Below are positions 13,301-29,550 of a DNA stretch of 49,418 bases, piece by piece. Positions within the stretch are counted from its first letter, which is position 1. Each line of letters starts with the position of its first letter. The notes below the pieces were generated by a model. It saw only the letters and a list, made by a program, of their open reading frames with translations. It ran no database searches and had not been told where the DNA came from. The DNA comes from Bacteroidota bacterium (GTDB taxonomy: Bacteria > Bacteroidota > Ignavibacteria > Ignavibacteriales > Ignavibacteriaceae), in contig JADFPP010000018.1 in the NCBI GenBank assembly GCA_022562275.1, positions 1-49,418 of the forward strand, written 5' to 3'. A program made the translations under genes and the position numbers.

Positions 13301-14794
13301 TGTATCATCACCCATTGATCCAATAGATTCTTTTCCATACTCCGACATCGGAAGAATGAATCGTTCAAAATCTTCCTTATCAATTCCGAATGCAATTCTT
13401 AATCTTCTATCAAATCCTTCAATGGGGTAAGAAAATTCATTAAACTCTTCCTGATTAGACATCCTATCAATAGAAACCAAATTATTTTTTATTGTTTCCG
13501 AATAACTTCCGTTTTTAATAACTTGATTTAGGATTTCATCATCCGAAATAATTCCACTGCCATCTAATCGTACAGCAAAATTTTCTCCTGCTTTCATATG
13601 ATGATGAATAAGAACATTTTCTGAACTTATATCCCCTACACCTGCCTCCGATGCCATTATTATCAATCCATCCTTAGTTATAGTGTACCTAAGTGGTCTC
13701 AATCCATTTCTATCTAATTTAGCAGCAACTATTTCTCCATCTGTAAAAATAAGAGCTGCCGGTCCATCCCAGGGCTCGATGTGGTTTTCGTGAAAGGCAT
13801 AAAAATCTTTGAGACTCTGATCCATATCTGAGTTATATAGATACGGCTCCGGGATAAGCATCATAATGCTCTGAAATAAATTTTTACCACTCTTTACTAA
13901 AAATTCAAGGATGTTATCTAAGCTAAATGAATCACTGCCTGATTGCGAAACTAAGGGCTTGAGCTTTTCTATATTTTTACCCCAGAAAGATGATTGGATA
14001 GAATCTTCTCTTGTTTTCATCCATAACCTGTTACCTTTAATCGTGTTTATTTCACCATTATGAGCTAACATTCTGAATGGTTGTGCCATACTCCAGCTTG
14101 ATATTGTATTGGTCGAAAATCTTTCGTGGAAAACAGACATACATACCTTAAAATTCAATTGATTTAAGTCGTGATAGAATTGAATCAATTGTCCTTTTCC
14201 CATCATGCCCTTGTATACAATAGTCTTTGCTGAAAGCGAACAAATGAATGAAGTTCCTTTATTCAGGTTGATATATGCCTCAACTGACTTTCGCAGCAAA
14301 TATAATTTTGTCTCGAAATCCCTTTTCGTTTTACCTTTATTTGTAAAAAAATATTGAATTATTTCAGGGCAAGTCTCTTCAGCGATCTCGCCTAGAATAG
14401 AATGATTAACAGGAACAATCCTTTGTCCCAAATATTTTATTTTCAGTTCTTTGCAATGGGACTGAATTTCTTCTTCAATTCCTGTAGCTTCTGAATCCTC
14501 AGTAAATACCATTGCTATCCCCAAGGGCTTATTCTGGTCGATATCTATATTCAGCACTGCTTTAATTATCATTGCGAAATATTGCTTTGGAATATCGACC
14601 AGTATTCCAACACCATCACCGGTTTTTTCATCGGCTCCATACGCTCCCCTATGAGACATTTTTTTCAACGCCTTAATTGATAAGTCAATCACTCTTCGAC
14701 TTGGCTTACCTGTAGTTTCTACAATGAATCCGATACCACAACCATCGTGATACTCTGTATTACTTAATATTTGTTTGGGATTATTTTCCATCAT
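10319..14794 (-). CDS. gltB: Glutamate synthase large subunit
   Basis: 1491 residues, full length for the family. It makes glutamate from glutamine and 2-oxoglutarate. Cys19 in YHDGCGIGFIV is the N-terminal nucleophile of the glutaminase domain exposed after propeptide removal. The FMN synthase domain (about 800-1180) includes PGEGGQLPGEKV and GHDGGTGATPLGS. The 3Fe-4S cluster cysteines lie in CIMARRCHLNNCPAG. The C-terminal beta-helix has repeated G-rich turns (GRGMSGG, ATGGEMFVSGKAGERFAVRN). It is the last gene of the branched-chain amino-acid operon. No gltD small subunit occurs in the window, so it is either completed elsewhere or runs on ferredoxin. Confidence 0.96.
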   Translation of the reverse strand: MMENNPKQILSNTEYHDGCGIGFIVETTGKPSRRVIDLSIKALKKMSHRGAYGADEKTGDGVGILVDIPKQYFAMIIKAVLNIDIDQNKPLGIAMVFTEDSEATGIEEEIQSHCKELKIKYLGQRIVPVNHSILGEIAEETCPEIIQYFFTNKGKTKRDFETKLYLLRKSVEAYINLNKGTSFICSLSAKTIVYKGMMGKGQLIQFYHDLNQLNFKVCMSVFHERFSTNTISSWSMAQPFRMLAHNGEINTIKGNRLWMKTREDSIQSSFWGKNIEKLKPLVSQSGSDSFSLDNILEFLVKSGKNLFQSIMMLIPEPYLYNSDMDQSLKDFYAFHENHIEPWDGPAALIFTDGEIVAAKLDRNGLRPLRYTITKDGLIIMASEAGVGDISSENVLIHHHMKAGENFAVRLDGSGIISDDEILNQVIKNGSYSETIKNNLVSIDRMSNQEEFNEFSYPIEGFDRRLRIAFGIDKEDFERFILPMSEYGKESIGSMGDDTPPAMISQTPPKLYDYFKQYFAQVTNPPIDPIRERYVMSLIRYIGSEENLLSESDVFKTAIRIESPVLSPREVKLLLAQHEWFPYSIIKCLVHPDENFEQRLKIIKSECEKVVLNGTKIIFLSDEGVSESKMPIPMLLSVSAVHQHLIEKRLRNKVALLCFTGDVIEDHHVACLIGFGASAVYPYMAYELIREHYNDDDWVTKLSNYRYALEKGLLKIMAKMGISTVNSYHGSMLYHGIGISQSLVENYFPSVKSILGGIDLDTLREVQNNRREKAFILNKKFEEYGRFRYRKNGEQHGFSPTIFRNIQNIASGKNNVKNIETDKPVYIRDLLHIVRDSEIQIEQIDQIEPEKEILRRFGLGAMSFGAVSEEVHRTLARAASMLNIRSNSGEGGEQKDRYSISNPDKSENCYVKQIASGRFGVTPFYLSAAREIQIKMAQGAKPGEGGQLPGEKVTLSLANDRHTTPGVPLISPPPHHDIYSIEDIAQLIYDLRQVNPRANICVKLVSQFGIGIIASGVVKAGADIVLVSGHDGGTGATPLGSMKHTGLPWEIGLSEVHRTLTENGLRKRVVLRVDGGIKNAKDIIVAALLGAEEYDFGTSALIALGCIMARRCHLNNCPAGIATQDPELRKKFKGKPENLVNYLKNVTHDVRSLLIEMGKFSLDEIIGNNELLEINDSYRTFLKDNKIDLSAIIKSNNKKSYFLNSKVKIKPFNTNIDQHIDEGIIEEVRPAIMTHGRAIVNREIDNTNRAVGAGLSGLISFLYGQGAFKGHIQYNLEGSAGQSLGTFLVDNIEIRLMGVANDYVGRGMSGGLISIRFPRNFRKSLEGNTIIGNVALYGATGGEMFVSGKAGERFAVRNSGAAAVVEGVGNHCCEYMTRGAVIVLGEVGKNFGAGMTGGTAFIWNASAELDNCINTEYVRFDKIKPNDEDLLLKTLHNHEFHTGSIIAKKILSDWDKQKRLFVKVVPLALDMIDFKKMYKEQYFNRKLQVFNE

Positions 14795-14877
14795 CCGGTT
14801 ATAATTTAATAATTTTGTGAAAAGTTAGTAAGTGTGTTATAGAATTATATCAGATTAAGAGCAGGAAATTTCAATCA

Positions 14878-16473
14878 TTAGCTCATCTTTAACGCTTTGC
14901 TTTTTTGCAACTTGAATAACTTATGGTTAAAACTATCACACAAAGCCAACCAACTTGCTTCGATAATATTTTCAGACACACCAACTGTGGACCAAATATC
15001 AACGCCATCACTTGATTCTATTAGAACCCTAACTTTTGCGGTTGTCCCTTTTTTCTCATTAAGAACCCGAACTTTGTAATCAATTAATTTTATCATCAAT
15101 ATCTCCGGATAAAATCTTATAAGCGCTTTACGAAGAGCGTTATTAAGTGCATCAACAGGTCCAACGCCATTATCCGCAGTATGTTCTACTTCTCCATCAA
15201 CTTCAATTTTAAGTACAGCTTCGGATGATGTGTACCCTTCATTATCGAATATTACGTTCACTTTTGAGTCAAGCGTTTTAAAGAATGGTGAAAACTCCTT
15301 TGTTTCCGAAGCAAGAAGCAATTCAAATGAAGCCTCCGCCCCATCAAATTGATACCCATCATATTCCAGTGATTTTATAGATGACACTAATTTTTCACTC
15401 AATCCTATATTTCCAACTATATCCACCCCAAATTCTTTGGCTTTGTATTCTATATTACTTTTCCCGGATAAATCGGAAACCAGGACTCTCTGCTTGTTCC
15501 CTACAGAACCGGGAGGAATATGTTCATACATTCGACTATCTTTCATTACTGCACTTACATGTATTCCCCCTTTATGGGCAAATGCAGATTTACCAACATA
15601 CGGCGCATGCGTGTTGGGCACAATATTTAAAACTTCAGATATGAAATTTGAAAGTGAAGTAAGATGAGATAAATCAATTTGTTGATTGACTTCTCTATTC
15701 ATTTTTAAAACGAGATTTGGAATTATGCTGGCAAGATTAGCGTTTCCGCATCTTTCTCCGAGACCATTTATTGTTCCCTGTACATGAACGGCACCTGCTT
15801 CAACAGCAATCAGGGAATTTGCAACCCCTAATTCGCTATCGTTATGAGCATGAATCCCTATTGGTTTATGAATAACTTTCTTTACATTTAAAACGATATT
15901 ATAAACCTCGGATGGAAGTGATCCGCCGTTAGTATCACAAAGAGTAATTACATCTGCACCACCTTTTACTGCTGCTTCCAACATTCTGATTGCAAATTCT
16001 TTATCATTTTTATAACCATCAAAAAAATGTTCTGCATCAAATATGACTGTTTTTCCATGCTCTTTTAAGAAGAGAATAGATGATAATATTAATTCCTCAT
16101 TTTCCTGCTCAGTTAATCCCAATCCTTTTTCGGCATGAAATTTCCAGGTTTTACCGAAAATTGTTATTACAGGTGTTTCAGCTTTGATTAGAGCTAATAA
16201 ATTTTTATCTGAAGTAATTTGATCCGGATATCTTGCTGTTGATCCAAAAGCACATATCCTGGTATGCTTTAGATTCATCTGCTTTACTCTTTCGAAGAAT
16301 TCCACATCTTTTGGATTGCTTCCAGGCCAACCGCCTTCTACAATATCAATACCGAAATCGTCAAGTTTCTGTGTAATTGAAATTTTATCCTGAACAGAAA
16401 GATTCACACCTTCACTTTGTGTTCCATCCCTCAGTGTAGTGTCAAACAATTCAATTTTTGTTAAGTGTTCCAT
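14878..16473 (-). CDS. cimA: (R)-citramalate synthase
   Basis: 531 residues. Condenses pyruvate and acetyl-CoA to citramalate, the first step of threonine-independent isoleucine synthesis. The alpha-IPM synthase-like barrel starts with IELFDTTLRDGTQSEGVNLS; metal-binding HAHNDSELGVANS and GTINGLGERCGNANL are intact. The EGGWPGSNPKD and GKTWKFHAEKGLGLT stretches are typical of the CimA (TIGR00977) branch rather than LeuA. The C-terminal domain is the LeuA-type regulatory dimer domain. It lies 20 bases after leuD. Its presence next to leuCD is consistent with the isomerase working on citramalate as well. Confidence 0.92.
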   Translation of the reverse strand: MEHLTKIELFDTTLRDGTQSEGVNLSVQDKISITQKLDDFGIDIVEGGWPGSNPKDVEFFERVKQMNLKHTRICAFGSTARYPDQITSDKNLLALIKAETPVITIFGKTWKFHAEKGLGLTEQENEELILSSILFLKEHGKTVIFDAEHFFDGYKNDKEFAIRMLEAAVKGGADVITLCDTNGGSLPSEVYNIVLNVKKVIHKPIGIHAHNDSELGVANSLIAVEAGAVHVQGTINGLGERCGNANLASIIPNLVLKMNREVNQQIDLSHLTSLSNFISEVLNIVPNTHAPYVGKSAFAHKGGIHVSAVMKDSRMYEHIPPGSVGNKQRVLVSDLSGKSNIEYKAKEFGVDIVGNIGLSEKLVSSIKSLEYDGYQFDGAEASFELLLASETKEFSPFFKTLDSKVNVIFDNEGYTSSEAVLKIEVDGEVEHTADNGVGPVDALNNALRKALIRFYPEILMIKLIDYKVRVLNEKKGTTAKVRVLIESSDGVDIWSTVGVSENIIEASWLALCDSFNHKLFKLQKSKALKMS

Positions 16474-16493
16474 TTGTTTAATTAATTTTATTT

Positions 16494-17054
16494 TTAGATT
16501 ATCATTCCTGTTTTTCGAGCATATTTAAATAATCCACCTTCCTGAATAATAGGCAAAACATCTCCAAGTGGTTTTAAATTATATAATAGATTTTCAGTAA
16601 TATTTTTGAGTGAATTATTCTCCAAATCAATTTCAAGTAAATCACCGGTTTTTATTTTATCAATTAATTTTTCAGTTGATTCGTACGGAACAAGAAATCC
16701 CCCATCAACAGAGTTGCGATAAAATATTCTGGCATATGATTCAGCAATAATTGCCTGAACACCTGCTTTTTGTAATGCAAATGGAGCATGTTCTCTCGAT
16801 GAACCACAACCGAAATTTGTGCCGCCGATGATAATATTGAATATTGATTTGTATTCATCATCATCAATAAATGGAATACTCCCTTTAGGTAAACCTGATT
16901 GAGAAACTGGCACACCCGATAAGGCAAAATGACCATACTTTTTTGCTTCATCTTCATCTGTTAAACTATAAACCAGATGCTCTGCCGGAATTATTTGATC
17001 AGTGTCAATATTATTTCCAAGGACAAAAGCTTTACCATAAATTATTTTTTTCAT
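16494..17054 (-). CDS. leuD: 3-isopropylmalate/citramalate isomerase small subunit
   Basis: 186 residues, short aconitase swivel-domain type. It pairs with LeuC to isomerise 2- to 3-isopropylmalate, and probably citramalate to methylmalate. Signature residues: NNIDTDQIIPAEHL near the start and GCGSSREHAPFAL in the middle. It is separated from leuC by a 242-base gap containing palindromes, unusual because leuC and leuD normally abut. No strong ribosome site is seen before the ATG. Confidence 0.93.
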   Translation of the reverse strand: MKKIIYGKAFVLGNNIDTDQIIPAEHLVYSLTDEDEAKKYGHFALSGVPVSQSGLPKGSIPFIDDDEYKSIFNIIIGGTNFGCGSSREHAPFALQKAGVQAIIAESYARIFYRNSVDGGFLVPYESTEKLIDKIKTGDLLEIDLENNSLKNITENLLYNLKPLGDVLPIIQEGGLFKYARKTGMII

Positions 17055-17130
17055 TTTTTTTACTGTCCAATATCAGTGATATTTTATATTTTATTTTTAT
17101 TAAATAAGTCATCTAAAAAAAACTAATAAA

Positions 17131-17244
17131 AACCGTTAAAACGGTTCAGGTTTTTATTTTGGTCTCATTAACCCACGACTTAATCCGCCTATGGCGGAGT
17201 GGGTTAATGACAACCTAACCATTTTTTTAACCGTTAAAACAGTT
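17131..17244. repeat. Composite palindromic element between leuC and leuD
   Basis: CATTAACCCAC (17166-17176) pairs perfectly with GTGGGTTAATG (17199-17209), with an inner CCGCC/GGCGG stem. On each side lies a copy of AACCGTTAAAACGGTT (17131-17146) or its near-copy AACCGTTAAAACAGTT (17229-17244), each itself a palindrome. The whole looks like a small non-coding inserted element. Transcribed inside the operon, it would form strong RNA hairpins. Confidence 0.8.
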
Positions 17245-17296
17245 TATAATTATGTCACTTACTCATAAATTTACCTTTTTAGAGAGAACTCATTAA

Positions 17297-18592
17297 TTAA
17301 AGAAAATCTCTTGGGTCAGTAATTACACCTTTAATTGCCGAGGCAGCTACTGTTAATGGAGAAGCCAGGTAAACTTCAGATTTTTTGCTTCCCATTCTCC
17401 CGGGGAAGTTTCTGTTTGTGGTTGATATTACAACATCCTTATCAACTGCTCTTCCAATAGTATCATCTGGTCCTCCAAGACAAGCTGCACAGGAAGACTG
17501 AGCTATTTCACATCCGGATTTTTCAAATATTTCTTTTAAAGAAATACCACTTATCGTTTCTGTTTCAAGTTGATTTGCTGTTTCGGTACTTGCAGGAACA
17601 ATAAATGTTGGTACTTTAACTTCCTCTCCAAATAGAAACTTTGCCGCAAAACGAAAGTCCGTAATTTTTCCACCGGTACACGAACCGATATAACACTTTG
17701 TTAAATTGGTTCCGGAAACATTTTGAACAGTGTCCCTGTTATCCGGGCTATGTGGTTTTGCAATAAGCGGCTCAATTGTTTCAACATCATATTCGTATTT
17801 ACTATGATATTCTGCATCAACATCGCTGTTGAAAATTTGAAATGATTTATCTGTTCTTTGTTTTACATAGTCAATAGTAACTTCATCGGCAGCAATAATT
17901 CCGTTCATTCCACCTGATTCAATTGCCATATTTGTTAAGGTCATTCTTTCTTCCATTGATAGTGCAAATACTGTTTCACCATCAAATTCCATTGCGCGAT
18001 AGGTAGCACCATCGGTTGTAATATCACCCAGTATTTGGAGCATAAGATCTTTTGCTGTTAAATATTCCGGAAGTTTTCCGTTAAAGATAAATTTTATTGA
18101 CTCAGGAACTTTCTCCCAAATTTTACCTGTACCAAGAATAAATGCTGCATCTGTATTTCCAACACCTGTTGCAAACATTCCAAATGCGCCGGAAGTACAT
18201 GTGTGTGAATCAGTTCCAAATAATACAGTTCCGGGTACATTGTATCCTTCCTCAGCCAATGCAATATGACATACTCCTTTATATCGGTCTGTTCCAACAT
18301 CATAATAATTTTCAATCTGATAATCCTTAGCGAATTGTCTGAGAATATCAACATTTCTATTAGCGTGCTTATTTGCTGTAAATATGTAATGATCCGGAAA
18401 TATAACCAGTTTACTTTTGTCCCAAATTTTGGCATTCTCACCAAATTCATTTTTCCATATTGCAATAGTTGGCGGTCCGCATATATCGTGTGTCATTAAA
18501 ACATCAACATTTAACCAGATATTTTCGCCCGGCTTTACGGTTTTTTTCTCTGCCGATCTCGCAAGTATTTTTTCAGTTATTGTCATTCCCAT
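17297..18592 (-). CDS. leuC: 3-isopropylmalate/citramalate isomerase large subunit
   Basis: 431 residues, the shorter archaeal-like class. Aconitase-fold enzyme with a [4Fe-4S] cluster. The cluster cysteines are in YIGSCTGGKI and SSCAACLGGPDD. The substrate motifs FGTDSHTCTSGAFG and NRNFPGRMG are intact. AAGGAG precedes the ATG at a good distance; a second ATG two codons in is possible. Starts 14 bases after leuA. It works with LeuD in leucine synthesis and, given CimA, probably in isoleucine synthesis. Confidence 0.95.
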   Translation of the reverse strand: MGMTITEKILARSAEKKTVKPGENIWLNVDVLMTHDICGPPTIAIWKNEFGENAKIWDKSKLVIFPDHYIFTANKHANRNVDILRQFAKDYQIENYYDVGTDRYKGVCHIALAEEGYNVPGTVLFGTDSHTCTSGAFGMFATGVGNTDAAFILGTGKIWEKVPESIKFIFNGKLPEYLTAKDLMLQILGDITTDGATYRAMEFDGETVFALSMEERMTLTNMAIESGGMNGIIAADEVTIDYVKQRTDKSFQIFNSDVDAEYHSKYEYDVETIEPLIAKPHSPDNRDTVQNVSGTNLTKCYIGSCTGGKITDFRFAAKFLFGEEVKVPTFIVPASTETANQLETETISGISLKEIFEKSGCEIAQSSCAACLGGPDDTIGRAVDKDVVISTTNRNFPGRMGSKKSEVYLASPLTVAASAIKGVITDPRDFL

Positions 18593-18606
18593 TTAAGTAT
18601 TCTCCT

Positions 18607-20187
18607 TTAAGTCACTTCGGAAAATGAATCTTCATTATGAAACATTGTTAGTTCTGCTTTGAATATCTCTTGTTGATTAATCGCTTGAATATAAGCTTTA
18701 CCACTTGCTTCTATCACATCCGTTGATACCCCCCTGCCGTTAAACGATTGATGTTCTTGTCTAATCCGTACAATTACTTCACCAAGAGCTTTTCTTCCCG
18801 AAGTTACTGACCTGACCTGGTATGATTCTATTTTGGGTTGAATGTTCAGTGCTCTGTCTATTGCGTTAAATAGAGCATCAACTGATCCGTCGCCTGTGGC
18901 AGAATCGGAATATTCTGTATCGTCTCCTTTAATTGTAACAGTTGCCGTAGGGATTGAATTTGTGCCGGAGTTTACATTAATATAAACTAATTCATAGTAA
19001 CCTTGTTCTTTTTTAATTTCATCTCCCATCAATACGCGTAAGTCTTCATCAAATACTTCTTTCTTTTTATCTGCCAGATCTATAAACAGCTCATACACTT
19101 TTTGTAATTCTTTATCGGTTAATTCATACCCTAACTCTTGTAAACGTGCTTTCAATCCATGTTTGCCGGAATGCCTTCCCAAAACAATTTTTGTTTTTTG
19201 AACTCCAACTGTTTCGGGAGTTATTATTTCATAAGTTTCACGATTTTTCAGCATTCCGTCCTGGTGTATGCCCGACTCATGAGCAAATGCATTTTCACCA
19301 ACTATGGCTTTGTTTGGTTGAACAATAACACCGGTAAAAGCGGAAACCATTCTGCTTGTATTATAAATTTCTTTTGTAGTAATATTTGTAGATAAATTGT
19401 ATAAGTCTTTTCTAACTTTTAAAGCCATCACTAATTCCTCTAAAGAAGCATTACCGGCACGTTCTCCAATACCATTGATTGTACATTCAACCTGTCTTGC
19501 GCCGTTTTCAACACCGGCTAAGGAGTTTGCAACTGCCAGCCCAAGATCGTCATGGCAATGAACACTGATTATTATATTTTCAATATTTTTTACACGTCTT
19601 CGTAATTCGGCGATTATCTTGCCGAACTCAGAAGGCATTGTGTATCCTGTTGTATCGGGGATATTGACAGTCGTAGCTCCTGCTTCGATTGCGGCTTCAA
19701 TAACTTCGGCTAAATAACCAATATCAGTTCTTCCTGCATCTTCAGCAGAAAATTCGATATCATCGCAAAAAGTTTTTGCGTACTGAACCATGTCATAGGA
19801 CATGCGAATTACTGTTTGCCGTTTTTCTTCGAGTGATTTTCCATATCTATCACTCTTGAATTTACCGAGGATGTGATAGTCTGAAGTACTTGAAAAAGTA
19901 TGTATTCTTTTTTTATCTGCATTTTGAATTGCTTCATAAGCTGTTTTTATATCAATTTCTTTTGTGCGTGAGAGCGCTGCAATTCTTACTCCAATTTCAC
20001 CCGCAATCCTCTTAACAGCCTCAAACTGTGCAGGTGAAGAAACAGGAAATCCGGCTTCAATAACATCAACATTCAATTTTTCAAGTTGTTTAGCAATCTC
20101 CAGCTTTTCGAATATATTTAACGAAGCTCCGGGAGATTGTTCACCATCCCTTAAAGTTGTATCGAAGACTATTACTTTATCTCTCAT
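18607..20187 (-). CDS. leuA: 2-isopropylmalate synthase
   Basis: 526 residues. Condenses 2-oxoisovalerate with acetyl-CoA, the committed step of leucine synthesis. The TIM barrel opens with VFDTTLRDGEQSPGASLN; the metal site is VHCHDDLGLAVANS, and the conserved CTINGIGERAGNASLEE follows. FAHESGIHQDGMLK is in the linker. The last 130 or so residues are the LeuA dimer domain that binds leucine for feedback inhibition (GDGSVDALFNAI). Starts 35 bases after leuB. Confidence 0.96.
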   Translation of the reverse strand: MRDKVIVFDTTLRDGEQSPGASLNIFEKLEIAKQLEKLNVDVIEAGFPVSSPAQFEAVKRIAGEIGVRIAALSRTKEIDIKTAYEAIQNADKKRIHTFSSTSDYHILGKFKSDRYGKSLEEKRQTVIRMSYDMVQYAKTFCDDIEFSAEDAGRTDIGYLAEVIEAAIEAGATTVNIPDTTGYTMPSEFGKIIAELRRRVKNIENIIISVHCHDDLGLAVANSLAGVENGARQVECTINGIGERAGNASLEELVMALKVRKDLYNLSTNITTKEIYNTSRMVSAFTGVIVQPNKAIVGENAFAHESGIHQDGMLKNRETYEIITPETVGVQKTKIVLGRHSGKHGLKARLQELGYELTDKELQKVYELFIDLADKKKEVFDEDLRVLMGDEIKKEQGYYELVYINVNSGTNSIPTATVTIKGDDTEYSDSATGDGSVDALFNAIDRALNIQPKIESYQVRSVTSGRKALGEVIVRIRQEHQSFNGRGVSTDVIEASGKAYIQAINQQEIFKAELTMFHNEDSFSEVT

Positions 20188-20222
20188 TTTTTTCCATGGT
20201 TTGGTTATTCTTTTTTACTTAT

Positions 20223-21320
20223 CTATAATGTAAAGACCCCTAAAGCCTGTTCATTATATATTTCTTCAAATTTTTGTATAATAATTTTTGTCATCTCTGT
20301 TGTTCCGACGATATTATTCTCTTCATTTCCAATATCCGCTGTTCTATAACCCTCATCTAAAGTTCGTTCAATCGCATTGAATATCAGTTCTGCAGCTTTG
20401 TGCATATCAAAAGTATGCTCAAACATCATAGCAACAGACGCAATACTTGCAATTGGATTAGCTATGTTCTGACCGCAGATATCAGGAGCGCTGCCATGTA
20501 CCGGTTCATAAAGAGCATAACTTGACCCAAGACTTGCTGACGGCAGCATACCCAGGCTTCCTGTAATCATGCCCGAAATATCACTTATTATATCTCCGAA
20601 CAAATTTGAGGTAAGAATAACATCAAATTGTTTTGGATCCCGAACAATCTGCATCGCAGCATTATCTACATACATATTCTTTAATTCTATTGTGGGATAA
20701 TTATTTGCTACTTCTTCCACCACCTTTCTCCAAAACTGGGAACACTCAAGCACATTTGCTTTATCGACTGAAGTAACTACGTGTTTTCGTTTGGAAGCTG
20801 CTTCAAAAGCCATGCGGGTAATTCTCTCTATTTCAAATTTTGTGTATATCATAGTATTCCATCCCTTATCTTCATCATAACCTCTCGGTTCGCCAAAGTA
20901 AATTCCGCCGGTTAATTCACGGAAAACAATAAAATCTGTTCCTTTAATTACTTCCTTTTTCAATGATGAAGAATCAATCAAAGCCGGATAGACTCTCGCC
21001 GGTCGAATGTTAGTAAATAATCCCAGAGATTTTCTAAGTTTTAGTAGTGCGGCTTCCGGCTTTAAATGATGTGGCAAAGTTTCCCATTTATATCCGCCTA
21101 CCGCACCAAGAAGAACAGCATCAGAATCATAACAAGCCTGCAAAGTTTCCTGGGTAAGCGGAGTACCGAATTTATCGTATGACACACCACCGAACAATTT
21201 CTCTTTAGTACTGATGTCCACATTAAATTTATTAGCTACATACGTTAATACACTTACTGCCGCTTCCGTTACTTCCGGTCCGATTCCATCGCCGGGAAGT
21301 AAGATTATTTTTTGTGGCAT
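20223..21320 (-). CDS. leuB: 3-isopropylmalate dehydrogenase
   Basis: 365 residues. NAD-dependent oxidative decarboxylation of 3-isopropylmalate to 2-oxoisocaproate in leucine synthesis. Motifs: LLPGDGIGPEVTEAA at the start, RPARVYP (substrate arginines), TGGIYFGEPRG, and NLFGDIISDISGMITGSLGM for metal and cofactor. GGAG lies eight bases before the ATG. The 139-base gap to ilvC upstream is AT-rich without a clear terminator, so it is probably in the same transcript. Confidence 0.96.
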   Translation of the reverse strand: MPQKIILLPGDGIGPEVTEAAVSVLTYVANKFNVDISTKEKLFGGVSYDKFGTPLTQETLQACYDSDAVLLGAVGGYKWETLPHHLKPEAALLKLRKSLGLFTNIRPARVYPALIDSSSLKKEVIKGTDFIVFRELTGGIYFGEPRGYDEDKGWNTMIYTKFEIERITRMAFEAASKRKHVVTSVDKANVLECSQFWRKVVEEVANNYPTIELKNMYVDNAAMQIVRDPKQFDVILTSNLFGDIISDISGMITGSLGMLPSASLGSSYALYEPVHGSAPDICGQNIANPIASIASVAMMFEHTFDMHKAAELIFNAIERTLDEGYRTADIGNEENNIVGTTEMTKIIIQKFEEIYNEQALGVFTL

Positions 21321-21459
21321 ATTTCAATCTCCGTTTTCATAAAATTTATTTAGCATTTATTTTAATAAAATTATAAAGTCTATATTTCTATCTTCAAGCA
21401 AGTAGTTAATAAATTATACAATGTCCTATCATATCAAATACTTATTTCAATTAAAATGA

Positions 21460-22500
21460 TTACTGAGGACGTAATTTTCTTACCTGTTCTCCTACCTGCC
21501 ATATCTCTGATTCTCTCATTTCTTTTAATTCCAACTCTAATTTTTCCCGGTAATCAGGTTTTCGTCCGGCTTCAATAACAATTTTTGCTTCATTTCCATT
21601 GGCAACGCTGTCATAAAGTTCATCAAAAACAGGTGATACAGCATCACGGAATTTATGGCGCCAATCTAATGCGCCCCGCTGAGCCGTTGTGGATACATTC
21701 GCCAGCATCCAGTCCATTCCCTTCTCGGCAACAAAAGGCATCAGGCTTTGGGTTAACTCTTCAACCGTTTCATTAAATGCTTCAGACGGCGAATGCCCAT
21801 GTTTCCGTAAAACATTATATTGTGCGTCAAATAATCCGGCTAAGGCACCGATTAGAATACCTCGTTCACCTGTAAGATCGGAATATACTTCTCGTTTAAA
21901 ATCTGTTTCAAATAAATATCCGGAACCAATTCCAATACCCAACGCACTAACGCGGTCTTTTGCCCTGCCTGTTGCATCCTGATATATAGCAAAACTCGAA
22001 TTTAGTCCCTTGCCTTCTAAAAACAATGAGCGCAATGATGTACCGGAACCTTTTGGTGCAACGAGAATAACATCGATATCTTTTGGTGGTATAATCCCTG
22101 TTTGCTCTTGATAGGTTATTCCGAAACCATGTGAGAAATACAAAGCATTACCAGGTTTTAAATGTTTCTTTACTTTTGCCCATTGTGATATCTGTCCAGC
22201 GTCTGAAAGGAGATACTCAATTATAGTACCTTTTTCAACTGCATCTTCAATTTCAAACAAAGTTTCACCTGGTATCCAGCCATCTCTAACTGCTTTATTC
22301 CATGTTTCTGAATCCTTCCGCTGACCAACAATTACATTAAAACCATTATCCTTCAAATTTAATGATTGTCCGGGACCCTGGACACCGTATCCTATTACCG
22401 CAATCGTTTCATCTTTTAATACATCAAGAGCCTTCTCTAAAGAAAACTCATTACGGGTAACCACATTTTCCTCTACACCACCAAAGTTAATTACAGACAT
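21460..22500 (-). CDS. ilvC: Ketol-acid reductoisomerase
   Basis: 346 residues, class I length. Converts acetolactate and acetohydroxybutyrate to dihydroxy acids using NADPH. The Rossmann loop is VIGYGVQGPGQSLNLKDNG, followed by VGQRKDSETW, whose Arg/Lys/Ser residues bind the NADP phosphate. KGSGTSLRSLF and DLTGERGILIGAL (metal-binding acidic residues) are present. It carries out the second common step of valine and isoleucine synthesis, next to ilvBN in the operon. Confidence 0.96.
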   Translation of the reverse strand: MSVINFGGVEENVVTRNEFSLEKALDVLKDETIAVIGYGVQGPGQSLNLKDNGFNVIVGQRKDSETWNKAVRDGWIPGETLFEIEDAVEKGTIIEYLLSDAGQISQWAKVKKHLKPGNALYFSHGFGITYQEQTGIIPPKDIDVILVAPKGSGTSLRSLFLEGKGLNSSFAIYQDATGRAKDRVSALGIGIGSGYLFETDFKREVYSDLTGERGILIGALAGLFDAQYNVLRKHGHSPSEAFNETVEELTQSLMPFVAEKGMDWMLANVSTTAQRGALDWRHKFRDAVSPVFDELYDSVANGNEAKIVIEAGRKPDYREKLELELKEMRESEIWQVGEQVRKLRPQ

Positions 22501-22616
22501 ATCTTCTGATTTCCTTTATTGATTTTAAAATTTATTTCATTTAGAATATGAATTGATTTCACAATAGGTTTTTTGTAACTCCGTTATGACAGTATTGAAT
22601 TTTACAAATATTATAT

Positions 22617-23159
22617 TCATACAAGAGTTTCCTGTTTTTGTTTTTCCATTTCATGCAAAGATTCATTAAACCGCCACATAGGTTTGATGATTGCTACTCT
22701 TCCTGAACGAACAAACTCGATAACACCAAATGGTTCAAGCTGTTCAAGTAATTCTTGTGTCTCTTCTTTGTGCCCGCTTTTTTCAACAATTAGAAATTCT
22801 TCTTCAACGGATAAAATTCTTGCATGATGCTGGCGCATGATTTTCTCTAGTTCTGCCCCTTTTTTTATAACTTTGATTGGCAGCTTATAAAGGGCAATTT
22901 CCTGGTAAATTATTTCATCCAATGTGTGATAGTATGCCTGGAAGACTTCAATTTGTTTTTCGATCTGCTTCACAACTTTTCTAACCATATCCCTTGTTTC
23001 CGTTACAACAATAGTGTAGCGATAGATATCGTGAGCTTCAGTTTCAGATGCTGTTATACTATCGATGTTTATATGTCTCCTGGTAAAAATAATTGAGATA
23101 TGACTCAATATCCCAATACGATTTTCTGTAAATACCGATATCGTAAATTGTTCTTTCAT
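22617..23159 (-). CDS. ilvN: Acetolactate synthase small (regulatory) subunit
   Basis: 180 residues. N-terminal ACT domain (FTISVFTENRIGILSHISII, then RRHINIDSITAS) binds valine to inhibit the catalytic subunit. The C-terminal part has the usual extra domain of ilvN/ilvH proteins. GGAG sits six bases upstream of the ATG, and the gene follows ilvB by 18 bases. Confidence 0.93.
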   Translation of the reverse strand: MKEQFTISVFTENRIGILSHISIIFTRRHINIDSITASETEAHDIYRYTIVVTETRDMVRKVVKQIEKQIEVFQAYYHTLDEIIYQEIALYKLPIKVIKKGAELEKIMRQHHARILSVEEEFLIVEKSGHKEETQELLEQLEPFGVIEFVRSGRVAIIKPMWRFNESLHEMEKQKQETLV

Positions 23160-23177
23160 TATTTCTCCAAATTATAA

Positions 23178-24947
23178 TTAATCTAATCTAATTTCTGCTA
23201 CTGATGAACCAGTGGGTATCATTGGGAAAACATTATCTTCCTTGGCGACAATTACTTCCAGCAAATATGCGCCGTCATAATCCAGCATTTCCTGAATATC
23301 CATACTAAGATTATCTCTGGTTTCAATTTTTTTGCTTTTAATACCGTAACCCTGCGCAATCGCAACAAAATCCGGATTATCCATAACTGTAGAAGCATAT
23401 CTCTTATCAAAAAACATTTCCTGCCATTGTCTTACCATACCCAGGAAATTATTATTTAAGACAACAATTTTAAGATTTACCTTTGTTTGTAAAATTGTCC
23501 CAAGTTCCTGTATTGTCATTTGGAAACCACCATCGCCAATAATTGCAACAACGGTGCGGTCTGGGGCAGCTAATTTAGCTCCATAAGCAGCAGGCAGCCC
23601 AAATCCCATTGTCCCTAGTCCGCCGGAAGTTATATTACTCTTACTTTGTTTGAATTTAGTATAACGGCAGGTAATCATTTGATGTTGACCCACATCTGAA
23701 ACAATAACTGCATTATCATCGGTCTTTTCTGAAATAAGGTGAACAACTTCTCCCATTGTTATTTCTCCCTGGGTTGGAAAAATATCATTTTGAATAATTT
23801 TTTCATCTTCAATTTGTTGCAGCTTGTAAAATTCTTCTATCCACTTTATATGCGTTTTTTTATCGATAAGCTTTGTAAGCATAGGTAGTGCTTCCTTTAC
23901 ATCGGCATGGATTCCAATTGTGGCTTTTATAATTTTATTAATTTCTGCTGTATCTATATCTATGTGGATTATTTTTGCCTGCTTTGCATACCGAGAAACA
24001 TCACCGGTTACCCTATCATCGAAACGCATACCAACGGCGATAAGAACATCACATTCATTAGTTAATTTATTCGGAGCATAATTACCATGCATACCCAGCA
24101 TTCCCATATTTAGTGGATGGCTGGATTCCAGAGCAGACAATCCAAGTATAGTCCAGGCAGCAGGCAAACCACCTTTTTCAATAAACTGCTTAAATTCTTC
24201 CTCTGCTTTTCCGAGGATAACACCCTGACCAAATAAAACAAAAGGTTTCTCTGCATTATTAATAATTTCTGCTGCTTCTTCAATCTTGTTTATTTTTATT
24301 ACAGGTATTGGTATATAACTACGGATATTTGTACATTTTTTATATTCAAAATTCAATTCGCTAAATTGAGCATCTTTGGTAATATCGATTAAAACAGGTC
24401 CTGGACGGCCACTTTTTGCAATGTAAAAAGCTTTTGCAAATACCACCGGAATATCTTCGGATTTTGTTACCTGTATATTCCATTTTGTTACAGGCATTGT
24501 AATACCAATAACGTCAGTTTCCTGAAAAGCATCTGTACCCAGCAGATGACTTCCTACCTGTCCTGTAATACAAACGATTGGTGTTGAATCTATATAAGCA
24601 TCTGCTATTCCTGTTATAAGATTTGTAGCACCTGGTCCCGAAGTTGCTATACACACGCCTATATTTCCTGAAACACGTGCGTAACCCTGCGCTGCATGTA
24701 CAGCTCCTTGCTCGTGTCTGGTGAGTACATGATGCAGTTGATCCTGATACTTATAAAGTTCATCATACACCGGCATTATGGCTCCACCGGGATAACCAAA
24801 TATTGTATTAACTCCTTCAGCAAGAAGGGATCTGACCACGGCTTCAGAACCTGTTATTCTAATGCCTTTATCTTTATCAGATTCAAAAAAATTATAATCC
24901 TCTGAATTGTCTGACAATGCTGCTTTTGACATTACAGCCTCTTTCAT
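23178..24947 (-). CDS. ilvB: Acetolactate synthase large (catalytic) subunit
   Basis: 589 residues. Thiamine-diphosphate enzyme making acetolactate and acetohydroxybutyrate. The N-terminal domain holds the catalytic Glu in the LTRHEQGAVHAAQGYAR stretch. The cofactor motif is IIGDGGFQMTIQELGTILQ through VVLNNNFLGMVRQW. A roughly 30-residue N-terminal extension precedes the first conserved block (ITGSEAVVRSLLAEGV). GGAG seven bases before the first ATG supports the long start; the next ATG is five codons later. Confidence 0.96.
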   Translation of the reverse strand: MKEAVMSKAALSDNSEDYNFFESDKDKGIRITGSEAVVRSLLAEGVNTIFGYPGGAIMPVYDELYKYQDQLHHVLTRHEQGAVHAAQGYARVSGNIGVCIATSGPGATNLITGIADAYIDSTPIVCITGQVGSHLLGTDAFQETDVIGITMPVTKWNIQVTKSEDIPVVFAKAFYIAKSGRPGPVLIDITKDAQFSELNFEYKKCTNIRSYIPIPVIKINKIEEAAEIINNAEKPFVLFGQGVILGKAEEEFKQFIEKGGLPAAWTILGLSALESSHPLNMGMLGMHGNYAPNKLTNECDVLIAVGMRFDDRVTGDVSRYAKQAKIIHIDIDTAEINKIIKATIGIHADVKEALPMLTKLIDKKTHIKWIEEFYKLQQIEDEKIIQNDIFPTQGEITMGEVVHLISEKTDDNAVIVSDVGQHQMITCRYTKFKQSKSNITSGGLGTMGFGLPAAYGAKLAAPDRTVVAIIGDGGFQMTIQELGTILQTKVNLKIVVLNNNFLGMVRQWQEMFFDKRYASTVMDNPDFVAIAQGYGIKSKKIETRDNLSMDIQEMLDYDGAYLLEVIVAKEDNVFPMIPTGSSVAEIRLD

Positions 24948-24976: not shown

Positions 24977-26653
24977 TTAGTTTTTATCGGTTATACATCC
25001 TTGCGATGCTGACGATACCGAAATTGCGTAACGATACAACACACCGCGCTGCACTTTTAATGGTGGCTCCTGCCATTTTTTTCTTCTTTCATCTTTTTCC
25101 GCTTCTGAAATTTCCACTTCGATTAAATTATTTTTCGTGTCAATAGTTATCATATCACCATCCTGTATCAGGGCAAGCATTCCTCCTTGTTGTGCTTCGG
25201 GCGAGATATGACCTACAACAAAACCATGTGTTCCACCCGAGAATCGTCCATCGGTTATAAGGGCTACATCATTTCCTAAGCCGCAACCCATAATTGCAGC
25301 AGTTGGTTTCAACATTTCAGCCATTCCCGGACCTCCTTTTGGTCCTTCGTAACGTATGACTATTACATCACCTTTTTTAATTTTTCGGGCACTAATAGCA
25401 TCATTTGCCTCGTATTCAGAATTAAATACAATAGCCGGTCCACGGAATATTAATCCTTCCTTTCCGGTAATTTTTGCTACGGCACCTTGTTCAGCAAGAT
25501 TTCCATACAGAATCTGTATATGTCCGGTTTTTTTAATTGGGTCTTGAATGGATGCAATAACATCCTGACCATCTTTGAGCGATGGGACATCTTTTAAATT
25601 TTCTTCAACTGTTTTGCCCGTTACAGTTTTGCAATCCCCATGAAACATATTATTTTCCAATAGATATTTCATTACAGCAGGGATACCGCCAATTTTGTGT
25701 AAATCTTCCATCAAATATTTCCCGCTGGGCTTCATGTCTGCAAGAATTGGAGTTTCGTCACTAATCCGTTGAAAATCCTCAAGGTCTAACTCAATATTAG
25801 CTGCATCTGCAATAGCCAGCAGATGCAATACAGCATTCGTTGATCCTCCGAGTACTATTACTAAAGTAATTGCGTTTTCAAAAGATTTTTTTGTAAGGAT
25901 TTTACTAGGTGTCAGGTTTTGTTCTAAAATGTTCAATATGGCTTTTCCTGAGAACACACACTCCTCCTCTTTGCCGGAAACAATTGCTGGTGTGGAAGAA
26001 CTGAACGGTAAACTCATGCCTAATGCCTCAATAGCTGATGCCATAGTATTTGCTGTATACATACCACCACACGCACCCTGACCAGGGCAGGCATTGCGTA
26101 TAATATTTTTAAATTCATACTCATCAATTTTTCCAGCTACTTTTTCACCCCACGCTTCAAATGCTGATACTACATCAAGTTTTTTGTTATTATAATTTCC
26201 AGATGCAATTGTGCCGCCATAAATCAAAATTGCCGGTCTGTTTAAACGGCACATAGCAATCAATGCTCCAGGCATATTCTTATCGCATCCAACAACAGAG
26301 ATAAGACCATCGTAGCTTTGGGCTTGTACAACTGTTTCAATGGAATCAGCAATTAAATCTCTTGATGGTAAGGAATAACGCATTCCGGGAGTACCCATTG
26401 AAATTCCGTCACTAACCCCGATCGTATGAAATACCAGCCCGACTAGTCCCGAATCGATAACACCTTGTTTTACAAGTTGAGCAAGATCATTTAAATGCAT
26501 ATTACACGGGTTGCCATCAAAGCCTGTGCTTGCAATACCAATGAAAGGTTTTTTAAGATCAGATTCATTTAATCCTAAGGCGTAAAGCATTGCCTGAGAT
26601 CCAGGTTGAGAATCATCTTGTGTAATTGATCTGCTGTATTTATTTAATTCCAT
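24977..26653 (-). CDS. ilvD: Dihydroxy-acid dehydratase
   Basis: 558 residues. Dehydrates dihydroxy acids to the 2-oxo acids of valine and isoleucine, with an iron-sulfur cluster. Cluster ligands: Cys50 in [10 protein letters not shown], the cysteine in [10 protein letters not shown], and that in [17 protein letters not shown]. The C-terminal block [20 protein letters not shown] is intact. It is the first structural gene of the operon; its ATG is 28 bases after the U-tract of the attenuator terminator, and no Shine-Dalgarno is obvious. Confidence 0.96.
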
Positions 26654-26681: not shown

Positions 26682-26715
26682 AAAAAAAGCTCTTCTCGTG
26701 AGTGAGAAGAGCTTT
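26682..26715 (-). terminator. Attenuator terminator of the ilv-leu operon
   Basis: On the minus strand AAAGCTCTTCTC and GAGAAGAGCTTT form a perfect 12-bp stem with loop ACTCAC (26715 to 26686), followed by seven U. It lies between the leader peptide and ilvD. Its 5' arm plus loop (TTCTCACTC, 26700-26708) is perfectly complementary over nine bases to GAGTGAGAA in the leader ORF (26739-26747), giving an antiterminator. Confidence 0.9.
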
Positions 26716-26725
26716 ATGATAATTA

Positions 26726-26806
26726 TTATTTTACGCTATTCTCACTCATTATATTTGGATAATAGTATCCCGATAATAATATGAATGAGAATAACGATAT
26801 TAACAT
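26726..26806 (-). CDS. ilv-leu operon leader peptide (attenuator)
   Basis: 26 codons from ATG 26806 to TAA 26728-26726. It holds four Leu, all TTA, and three Ile, all ATA, with ATA-TTA-TTA in a row at codons 9-11, plus three Tyr and one Val. Codons 4-11 overlap the 5' arm (26795-26775) of a 15-bp pause hairpin with 26758-26735. A ribosome stalled at the Leu/Ile codons would free the 3' arm to pair with 26700-26708 and prevent the terminator. A ribosome reaching the stop would cover it and allow termination. An in-frame TAA just before the ATG fixes the start. The ribosome site is weak. Confidence 0.8.
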   Translation of the reverse strand: MLISLFSFILLSGYYYPNIMSENSVK

Positions 26807-26830
26807 TTAAGTTTTTCAAAATTCAGTTTG

Positions 26831-26962
26831 CCTATAAGGAGGCTTCGCGTAACCTTGTTTAATTAAAAAAACAATTATTTAAAACTTGACAACACTTATT
26901 GTATTCCAACATTTTTGCTATGCTGCGCCCCCCTTTAAGAGGTTATGCAAAGGTTCCTATAA
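26831..26962. repeat. 132-bp element with imperfect terminal inverted repeats
   Basis: CCTATAAGGAGG-CTTCGCG-TAACC at 26831-26854 matches, with several mismatches and one gap, the reverse complement of GGTTATGCAAAGG-TTCCTATAA at 26941-26962. The interior is AT-rich apart from a C-run at 26928-26933 and has no ORF. It lies exactly between the two attenuators and may be a small non-autonomous insertion. No target duplication is clear. Confidence 0.4.
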
Positions 26963-26965
26963 AAC

Positions 26966-26993
26966 AAAAAAGCCATTCTTAATTGGAATGGCT
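26966..26993 (-). terminator. Upstream (distal) attenuator terminator
   Basis: Minus strand AGCCATTC and GAATGGCT form an 8-bp stem with a 7-base loop, followed by six U. Two further complementary arms lie upstream: GGAATGGC (27015-27008) and GCCATTC (27049-27043). All four segments can pair in the alternating 1:2, 2:3, 3:4 pattern of a transcription attenuator. Confidence 0.75.
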
Positions 26994-27023
26994 GCTGAAA
27001 TACCTATGCCATTCCACCATCAT
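26979..27023 (-). CDS. Putative 14-residue leader peptide of the distal attenuator
   Basis: ATG-ATG at 27023-27018 begins MMVEWHRYFSSHSN, ending at TAA 26981-26979 inside the loop of the distal terminator. It overlaps arms 2 and 3 completely, so translation would control their folding. The composition has Trp, Tyr, Phe and two His but no run of one residue, so the sensed signal cannot be read off. An in-frame TAA lies five codons before the first ATG. Confidence 0.5.
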   Translation of the reverse strand: MMVEWHRYFSSHSN

Positions 27024-27109
27024 TGAATAATGAGCAGGTTAAGAATGGCGATTATAATATTTCTAAAATTCATAATGAATATTTTTAATTATCAAAAATT
27101 TAAGGGACA

Positions 27110-27138
27110 AGTTAATTATTTAATTATTCTAATGTCAA
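27110..27138 (-). promoter_or_regulatory. Candidate promoter of the ilv-leu operon
   Basis: The minus strand has a perfect TTGACA (27138-27133), then 17 bases, then TTAACT (27115-27110), a poor -10. Transcription from here would include both attenuators. A TATAAT at minus 27056-27051 is an alternative -10 but has no matching -35 and would cut off the first arm of the distal attenuator. Confidence 0.35.
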
Positions 27139-27385: not shown

Positions 27386-29482
27386 TTATTTTAGTAATAT
27401 AAATTTTCTTGTCCGTATGAATTCACCGGCATTCATTCTATATAAATATATTCCACTGGCAAGACCGTCACTTTGTAATTTAAAAGAGTAATCACCGGCA
27501 TTAAATTCTCCATTTATGAATTCGAATATTTCCTCACCTAAAAGATTGTAAATTTTTATTATCACTCTTTCTCTTTGCGGAAGACTAAAACTGATAGTTG
27601 TTTCGGGGTTAAAAGGATTTGGAAAGTTTTGCGAAAGCGAATAGGATAAAACAGTATGTTTTGTATCTTGAACAGGAACAACATCTGTGCCACCGATGAG
27701 TACAACCTGGTGCCCAATTAGTAAAGTATCATTCACAGATCTGATGTTTAGTTTATCAGTATAATAGCCGTTAGCATCCGGTTTAAACATTAACCTTAGT
27801 TTAATTGATTTGAGGGGTGGGATTATAAGCGGCAAACTATCTACGACTGAAAATACGGACTCGCGTGAGAAAATTTCGTTAATTATAACTGCTTCATCTT
27901 TAGGATTACGTAATTCTATTAACCGGATAGAAGAATCCCCAACATCAACCGAACCAAAATCCATTGAATCAACATTTACAATAAACAAGTTAGTTTTCCA
28001 GTTAAATCTATATGAACGATATTGATGAGCATACGAAGTAAATATTATTTCAAATTCAATTGAGTCTTTTGAATTAATTTCTGTAATTGAAGGAGCTTGA
28101 TTTTCTCCCCAACTAATAAGAGTATGACCATTACCTAATTCCTGCACACCACCTCTTGAAGCAGTAAATACAGTCTGGTCCCGGGAGTATCTTCTAACAA
28201 GTCTTGCTATTAAATCCTGCTCATCAAGTATGTACTCAACGAAACTTGAGTATGCCGGAATTAGATACTTGCCATTATCAAAGAATGCCAAATGACCGTT
28301 TGAAAATCTTCTTACATCGTGTTGTCTTGAGAATCCCCTATTATCATTTTGGAATTGAAACTGATTTTTCTCACCGCCAAACCGCCAGATTATATCACCT
28401 GATTGTCTATTAATTTTTGTTATCTCATTAAAGTTTCTTGTGGAAAGAAGAATATTTCCATCCCTGTCAATTTCAATTGCATTACAATGTGTCCAATCAA
28501 TTTGATGCTGTGTTAAATCAATGAAATTATCAACATCGGTAATATCATAATGATCAAATGATCTCCATCTCCATATTTCATTATCATTAGCATCCATATG
28601 ATGGATAGTATGTGCGATTAATAATGCAGCGGTATCGCCATTCGCAACATACTGGCTCATATCTATTGTGAGATGTTCCCTGCCTAATAAATAATAACTA
28701 CTATCTTCTAATACTTGCAGCTCATGTATATCAAGGGCAAAGCCATCAGGAATAATATACTGTCTGGTAGGAATCCCGGAGTTATCCATACCGTAACTAT
28801 TTGCAGAATAAATATTGTATGTAAGTTCCCCTGTAGCCTGGTATTTAAAATCGAAAATTGTCCCCAAAACTTTTTTATAAAAAACAGGAGTAAGGTCGTT
28901 ATCAACAATTAATAGATGCCCGGTGCTCCCTTTGGTAAGACCCAAAAGAAGATAATCTCGCATCGGGTTATTATTTGTTGTAACTGCAAACTCCGGATAA
29001 GTTAATGGGGAACTAATATCATCTGATCCACTATTATCATAATTATAATCAACGGGACTATGCTCATATTCAATAATATGTGTTTGTGAATTATAATCTC
29101 TTGTGCTGAAAGTAAAGACAAGCTCTGGAAACTCGGTTCCTGTAGTTGTAATAATTCCATCTTTCAGTTTTACAGTAACGGACTCGTACTCTGCAAAAGG
29201 TTGATATGGTTTAAATAGAATAGTTTTTGAATTCTCAACCAATAGTAATTCGCCATTGTGAAAACCACTTTTAGAGCCCACCACTTCAAGTAAACTATTT
29301 AGAATGTTTGTCTTATCGAGTACCGAACCCTCTCTAATAATTATACTTGTGTAAGGTGTGTTAAGTTTAGAATTGGGCATTGGAGAGATATACTGATATT
29401 CTTTAAAATTTAATTCTTGAGCAGAACAAAAAAATGTTACGCCAAGCAGAATAAATATCAGCAAATAAAAGTTCAATCTCAT
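27386..29482 (-). CDS. T9SS-secreted arylsulfotransferase-like protein (short paralogue)
   Basis: 698 residues from the ATG at 29482. The frame extends 11 codons further to a TTG, but the ATG gives a clean signal peptide (MRLNFYLLIFILLGVTFFCS). A bacterial Ig-like domain spans about 20-120. The central beta-propeller-like region resembles the arylsulfotransferase family (PF05935/PF14269): LDIHELQVLEDSSYYLLG, DWTHCNAIEIDRDGN, INRQSGDIIWRFGG and RQHDVRRFSNGHLAFFDNG. Histidines in these stretches are candidates for the sulfate-carrying residue. A choice-of-anchor-like Ig domain (about 510-610) follows, then a T9SS sorting domain (NFPNPFNPETTISFSL). It should be extracellular, moving sulfate between phenolic compounds; substrate unknown. 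Tandem paralogue of the next gene upstream. Confidence 0.85.
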   Translation of the reverse strand: MRLNFYLLIFILLGVTFFCSAQELNFKEYQYISPMPNSKLNTPYTSIIIREGSVLDKTNILNSLLEVVGSKSGFHNGELLLVENSKTILFKPYQPFAEYESVTVKLKDGIITTTGTEFPELVFTFSTRDYNSQTHIIEYEHSPVDYNYDNSGSDDISSPLTYPEFAVTTNNNPMRDYLLLGLTKGSTGHLLIVDNDLTPVFYKKVLGTIFDFKYQATGELTYNIYSANSYGMDNSGIPTRQYIIPDGFALDIHELQVLEDSSYYLLGREHLTIDMSQYVANGDTAALLIAHTIHHMDANDNEIWRWRSFDHYDITDVDNFIDLTQHQIDWTHCNAIEIDRDGNILLSTRNFNEITKINRQSGDIIWRFGGEKNQFQFQNDNRGFSRQHDVRRFSNGHLAFFDNGKYLIPAYSSFVEYILDEQDLIARLVRRYSRDQTVFTASRGGVQELGNGHTLISWGENQAPSITEINSKDSIEFEIIFTSYAHQYRSYRFNWKTNLFIVNVDSMDFGSVDVGDSSIRLIELRNPKDEAVIINEIFSRESVFSVVDSLPLIIPPLKSIKLRLMFKPDANGYYTDKLNIRSVNDTLLIGHQVVLIGGTDVVPVQDTKHTVLSYSLSQNFPNPFNPETTISFSLPQRERVIIKIYNLLGEEIFEFINGEFNAGDYSFKLQSDGLASGIYLYRMNAGEFIRTRKFILLK

Positions 29483-29550
29483 ATAGAAAACATAAATATT
29501 TATTATTCCCACCAAATATTATGAATATAGTGTACTTAACATGCGATACA

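Follow-up and report, generated by a model that had tools for sequence, protein, structure and literature searches.

The window, a 49,418-nucleotide stretch of an Ignavibacteriaceae genome, carries a tandem of two complete transcription attenuators ahead of an ilv–leu operon, each with an intrinsic terminator and mutually exclusive pairings, and both conserved in a second genome, Ignavibacteriae bacterium isolate IGN16 (G120, in which loci L067 and L028 are one place). The sequence-only reading that preceded this work had proposed such a tandem, and on the sequence features described below we regard it as real. Very likely the two units form a serial leader-peptide attenuator that reads the same signal twice, with one input and two gates. 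Less firmly, although we still favour it, the pair would belong to a conserved and so far undescribed Bacteroidota class in which two ribosome-mediated attenuators answering to the same branched-chain amino acid (BCAA) signal stand in series within a single transcript as a multiplicative and steeper gate, are inherited or transferred with the ilv genes and, here, were retained despite being split by a mobile element.

Organization of the operon leader

All genes of the controlled operon lie on the minus strand. The first is ilvD (24977–26653; NCBIfam TIGR00110), followed by ilvB, ilvN, ilvC, leuB, leuA, leuC, leuD, cimA and gltB (10319–24947), an order backed by NCBIfam matches. Co-transcription from ilvD through gltB is plausible because the intergenic gaps are short and the one exception, the 242 nt between leuC and leuD, holds only a chance-level hairpin (a small hairpin with a T-tail at 17130–17147, minus strand; terminator-like sites in that scan occur at chance level). 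Upstream of the distal attenuator, the sequence TTG-N21-TAACTTG (27108–27138, minus strand) is promoter-like by consensus match and aligns with TTG-N21-TATTTTG in IGN16, giving TTG-N21-TAxxTTG as the form common to both genomes. Since this sole recognisable promoter lies upstream of both units, a transcript from it would have to pass both, as had been proposed.

The distal leader ORF, MNFRNIIIAILNLLIIQ (27020–27073, minus strand), comprises 17 codons with six Ile, three Leu and no Val, and falls below the customary size limit for ORFs; a cut-off of 20 codons conceals the real leader. The homologous ORF in IGN16, MKTIKNILVLIISIIIIQ, contains Val and ends identically (…TCATTATTCAATGA). Alternative-pairing analysis places segment 1 (GCCATTCTTAACC, 27037–27049) within the leader codons. 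Segment 2 (TGGTGGAATGGC, 27008–27019) follows directly after the leader stop, and its GGAATGG is kept in IGN16. The terminator scan and pairing define segment 3 (AGCCATTCCA, 26984–26993), which serves as antiterminator and terminator arm, segment 4 (GAATGGCT, 26971–26978) and the U-tract TTTTTTGTTTT (26961–26971), all on the minus strand. The resulting intrinsic terminator (26993–26971) has 8 bp followed by a T-run. Pairing energies are −15.2 (1:2), −12.9 (2:3) and −9.9 kcal/mol (3:4), with the antiterminator competing with the terminator, and the fold z-score is only −2.7. The distal leader had previously been identified as the 14-codon ORF MMVEWHRYFSSHSN, which begins at the stop codon of MNFRNIIIAILNLLIIQ and ends in the terminator loop. 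Its counterpart in IGN16, MTAEWYINFRKSHSIKEWLF, is alike only at the codons of the pairing arms (EW and SHS) and holds no run of any regulatory residue. We therefore rejected MMVEWHRYFSSHSN as a sensor: it arises as a by-product of pairing-arm sequence, the true leader being the Ile/Leu-rich 17-codon ORF that precedes it (27073–27020).

The proximal leader ORF, MKNLNVNIVILIHIIIGILLSKYNE (26742–26819, minus strand), starts with TTG and aligns with the ATG-started MKNFSLINIILLIIVIIIPGYWE of IGN16; the frame (26819–26742) is open and rich in Ile, Leu and Val (ILV-rich) in both genomes, with two Val codons in the window. The TTG start, where IGN16 has ATG, may render translation of this leader weak and favour termination. 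Segment 1 (CGTTATTCTCATTCAT, 26781–26796) lies within the leader codons by alternative-pairing analysis, and segment 2 (ATGAGTGAGAATAGCG, 26734–26749) pairs from a position that contains the leader stop. Segment 3 (26699–26715) supplies both the terminator arm (26715–26704) and the antiterminator partner (26708–26699), and segment 4 (26686–26697), found by terminator scan and pairing, is followed by a U-tract to about 26682; all four are on the minus strand. Pairing energies are −25.2 (1:2), −17.4 (2:3) and −17.4 kcal/mol (3:4), antiterminator and terminator again competing, and the fold z-score is −7.0. The terminator (26715–26686) has the 12 bp, followed by a T-run, that had been assigned to it, and the antiterminator, given earlier as nine bases, is 9–10 bp long. 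The 26-codon leader frame of the same account, MLISLFSFILLSGYYYPNIMSENSVK (26806–26726), does not survive comparison, as several stops break it in IGN16.

Two intrinsic terminators were observed on the minus strand, against 0.3 expected in shuffles. Two full signatures, each made up of a terminator, an antiterminator and an ILV-rich leader ORF, lie in the window leader; among 3000 dinucleotide shuffles, one contained a single signature and none contained two. In both units the terminator precedes the first structural gene, an ORF with codons for the end products lies upstream of the terminator, segment 1 falls within that ORF, the 2:3 antiterminator is exclusive, and ORF and pairing are conserved. 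With the insert described below removed, the whole leader (promoter, both ORFs and both terminators up to the ilvD start) is collinear with that of IGN16 without a large gap, and the alignment scores 104.9 compared with 18.8 ± 4.2 for shuffles. The distal hairpins, on whose conservation in relatives the sequence-only reading had let its case depend, are thus present in IGN16. Rfam models (Thr_leader, Leu_leader, T-box and riboswitch) gave no match at gathering score; Thr_leader matches some relatives weakly, below that score.

The insert between the attenuators

The two units do lie apart, as had been noted (about 170 bases), but the intervening sequence is not a plain spacer. Positions 26838–26958 are occupied by a dispersed repeat, a 121 bp insertion with imperfect terminal inverted repeats (AGGAACCTTTGCATAACC and GGTTACGCGAAGCCTCC), present in about 20 copies in the genome and absent from the IGN16 site. 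It is flanked by TTAT at 26959–26962 and 26834–26837, computed for the window as the two copies of a target-site duplication. When the leader was searched against the genome at the DNA level, about 20 further places matched, each of them over the stretch between the attenuators, and 4 bp target duplications (TTAT, TATG, TATA, TATT, TAAT and TAAC) could be read off among the listed copies. The insert is thus short, non-coding and multi-copy, with terminal inverted repeats and a target-site duplication, as in a miniature inverted-repeat element (MITE). The MITE-like family (L234–L252) is unnamed and contains no ORF; this genome has about 20 copies of it and a genus mate (G004) has one. At the DNA level, searches in relatives matched the insert repeat and not the attenuator leader.

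The gates look far apart in the window because this element is inserted between them: the gap from terminator to next leader is 151 nt, compared with 5–47 nt in all other pairs, and would be about 26 nt without the insert. As the insert-free leader aligns with that of IGN16 without a large gap, the attenuator pair is older than the insertion. The locus offers a natural experiment on two gates whose spacer was lengthened by a mobile element.

Signal, mechanism and relation to known systems

Summed over 14 tandem pairs, Ile, Val and Leu residues number 87, 30 and 17 in the distal peptides and 92, 27 and 19 in the proximal peptides, and nothing in the leader peptides of these pairs points to another amino acid. 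Both gates most likely read a single signal, the supply of isoleucine, valine and leucine. We infer leader translation, stalling, termination and the multiplicative logic from the arrangement of the leader. Transcription would start at the single promoter near 27138–27108, and the polymerase would meet the distal attenuator first. When charged Ile- or Leu-tRNA is scarce, a ribosome would stall on the distal Ile/Leu codons over segment 1, allowing segments 2 and 3 to pair and the polymerase to read through; when charged tRNA is ample, the ribosome would reach the stop beside segment 2, segments 3 and 4 would pair and transcription would end near 26966. A polymerase that escapes would then meet the independent second attenuator with its Val/Ile/Leu leader. 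There, stalling on Ile/Leu (or Val) codons would free segment 2, and a ribosome at the stop, which lies inside segment 2, would hide it; a second escape, at about 26682, would lead into ilvD. Readthrough would approximate the product of the two escape probabilities, so that repression would be tighter and the response to the one signal steeper. The MITE-like element entered between the gates later.

Several other readings were weighed. The distal attenuator had been thought to sense a different signal, and such a two-input device would have the distal unit respond to His, Trp, Tyr or Phe through MMVEWHRYFSSHSN and the proximal unit to BCAA. The tandem attenuators of mgtCBR do take different signals (PMC3641672), and MMVEWHRYFSSHSN exists and ends in the terminator loop; however, the better leader, with its six Ile and three Leu among 17 codons, stops where MMVEWHRYFSSHSN starts, the IGN16 version of MMVEWHRYFSSHSN diverges outside EW and SHS and has no regulatory-residue run, and in every other tandem pair the distal leader is rich in Ile and Val. 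With equal Ile/Val/Leu composition at both positions over the 14 pairs, we consider a second input very unlikely. A milder version, in which the leaders differ within BCAA (distal Ile/Leu, proximal Val/Ile/Leu) and give a graded or AND-type reading of the end products, draws on the absence of Val codons from the window's distal leader and the two in its proximal leader. Val is present in the IGN16 distal leader, however, and the composition is the same at both positions across the pairs, which leaves this version rather doubtful.

The remaining two alternatives would demote the distal unit. If the insert brought or exposed a promoter, the proximal unit alone would control ilvD and the distal unit would be a relic ending a short RNA. 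A 121 bp repeat of mobile type sits exactly between the gates, it widens the gap well past the range of other pairs, and it could hold a promoter of a kind that the consensus scan does not recognise. Yet no consensus promoter match was found between the gates on the sense strand in the 14 pairs scanned (in the window, no TTG/TAnnTTTG-like site), and the distal unit is intact, its promoter, its leader and its four segments all being conserved with IGN16; we judge this explanation unlikely. It is more improbable still, indeed hardly credible, that the distal hairpins do no more than terminate the upstream gene (27386–29515). That gene is on the same strand as ilvD, with 313 nt separating its end from the distal leader, but the conserved promoter-like site and the ILV-rich leader lie between, and in IGN16 another gene sits upstream and the double-attenuator structure is kept all the same. 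A same-signal pair in series remains the preferred reading.

In classical ribosome-mediated attenuation, as in the enterobacterial ilvGMEDA, leu and thr leaders, an ORF with end-product codons lies over segment 1, 2:3 pairing forms the antiterminator and 3:4 pairing the terminator; the textbook amino acid operon has one leader peptide and one terminator. Both units of the window resemble these attenuators in their leader codons over segment 1, a stop beside or in segment 2 and a biosynthetic operon downstream, but differ from them in that two complete units stand in series on one predicted transcript and match no Rfam family. The Bacteroid-trp RNA motif is a trp leader attenuator, from which the window differs in serving ilv instead of trp and in lacking an Rfam match. 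Weinberg et al. (2010; PMC2864571) list that motif (RF01692) for Bacteroidetes as a candidate structured RNA. The Salmonella mgtCBR virulence/Mg2+ operon has tandem attenuators for ATP and proline (Lee & Groisman, 2012; PMC3641672), a case that its authors describe as singular, biosynthetic genes normally having a single attenuator (PMC3641672). As in the window, a single leader there holds two short ORFs and attenuation is decided twice; in contrast, both window leaders are ILV-rich and point to one signal, where those of mgtCBR answer to different ones. Tandem T-boxes and riboswitches likewise multiply or combine control through serial leader elements, and T-boxes also read aminoacylation, with the modes of action of tandem T-boxes still unknown according to a review (PMC7583486); none of these elements is present here, and the proposed sensor is the translating ribosome. 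In some Gammaproteobacteria the rimP leader carries a tandem terminator (Naville & Gautheret, 2010; PMC2965389), resembling the window in that a further terminator, with an antiterminator, lies upstream of the first but differing in that no amino-acid leader peptides are described for it (PMC2965389). Within a partial coverage of the literature, no account was found of an amino acid operon with serial leader-peptide attenuators that read the same signal, or of BCAA attenuation in Bacteroidota; such silence is weak evidence. The recurrence of a same-signal pair raises the question of what a second identical gate buys: lower basal leak, a steeper response or noise control.

Distribution and origin of the tandem

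Of 188 distinct ilvD-upstream regions, 41 held one signature and nine held two by a strict detector, which scored none in 564 shuffles; a relaxed reading adds six pairs, for 15 tandems including those of the window and IGN16. The background in real sequence is eight stray signatures in 1.46 Mb, counting both strands. Similar tandems stand ahead of ilvD, or of the gene that precedes it, in a further set of about 18 genomes of Bacteroidota, chiefly Flavobacteriaceae. If ilvD is preceded by another gene, the leader is placed before that one; tandems in this position occur in Tenacibaculum, Cyclobacteriaceae, Chryseobacterium and probably Myroides, and one more tandem genome, in family f27, has a leader resembling that of Chryseobacterium. 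A draw of 40 upstream regions across the phylum contained one tandem. By these predicted units, Flavobacteriaceae and Weeksellaceae commonly carry the pair, which is not universal. A pattern match in another genome (G348, L041) was rejected, as its terminator lies beside other genes and has no leader.

Leaders of different families share a common logic and too little common sequence; conservation was judged by frame conservation, shuffles and partner swaps. The distal unit of Flavobacteriaceae is of one type (A; for example MKKQILNIISIIVIVIISQG, with terminator GCCTTCC..GGAAGGC) and the proximal unit of another, distinct type (B; for example MKLRNLTIIICVIINSV, with terminator CCTGTATCA..TGATACAGG). 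In swap tests, segment 2 of type A pairs better with its own segment 3 than with that of another leader (0 of 2000 permutations, z = 3.6, relatedness not being controlled), and type-B leaders are too uniform in sequence to tell own from swapped partners. Many Flavobacteriaceae genomes retain a single unit, A or B, so that two are not indispensable.

Among the Ignavibacteria the pair was found in just two genomes, the window's and IGN16. In the IlvD tree these two and a third genome (G097) fall on the Flavobacteriaceae side, away from other Ignavibacteria. Forcing all Ignavibacteria together was rejected (p-AU = 9e-11), and placing the window and IGN16, both on long branches, as sisters was not (p = 0.07). 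A close IlvD is absent from all five genus mates searched (G001–G005) and from most of the window's family, and the other close IlvD genes in that family lack an attenuator. Because the window IlvD groups with Flavobacteriaceae and not with other Ignavibacteria, the unit was probably transferred, transfer being the simplest reading of the tree; it appears to travel with its genes, as the window IlvD belongs to a lineage other than that of the resident Ignavibacteria. The window's group shows a patchy occurrence of BCAA synthesis. ORFs of 7 to 11 residues, and long ILV-rich ones, in the leaders of other Ignavibacteria (L010–L040) were rejected as they lack a terminator structure, and these genomes have no attenuator at ilvD.

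Some individual leaders depart from the general pattern. That of Meridianimaribacter (L051, about −183 to −138 before ilvD) has a type-A attenuator and, after it, an ILV-rich ORF that lacks a terminator and is possibly a decayed second gate. In Aquimarina (L056) the two units are near copies (MKTSNINIINVISNVVIISPR and MVMKAIKNISINVISIVVIISLR), which suggests a local duplication; in other Flavobacteriaceae the A and B units are distinct. Near the ilvD leaders of three Flavobacteriaceae, SAM-II riboswitch matches lie on the opposite strand (L064 3333–3392, L185 238–297 and L218 282–387, all minus strand, the last below gathering score).
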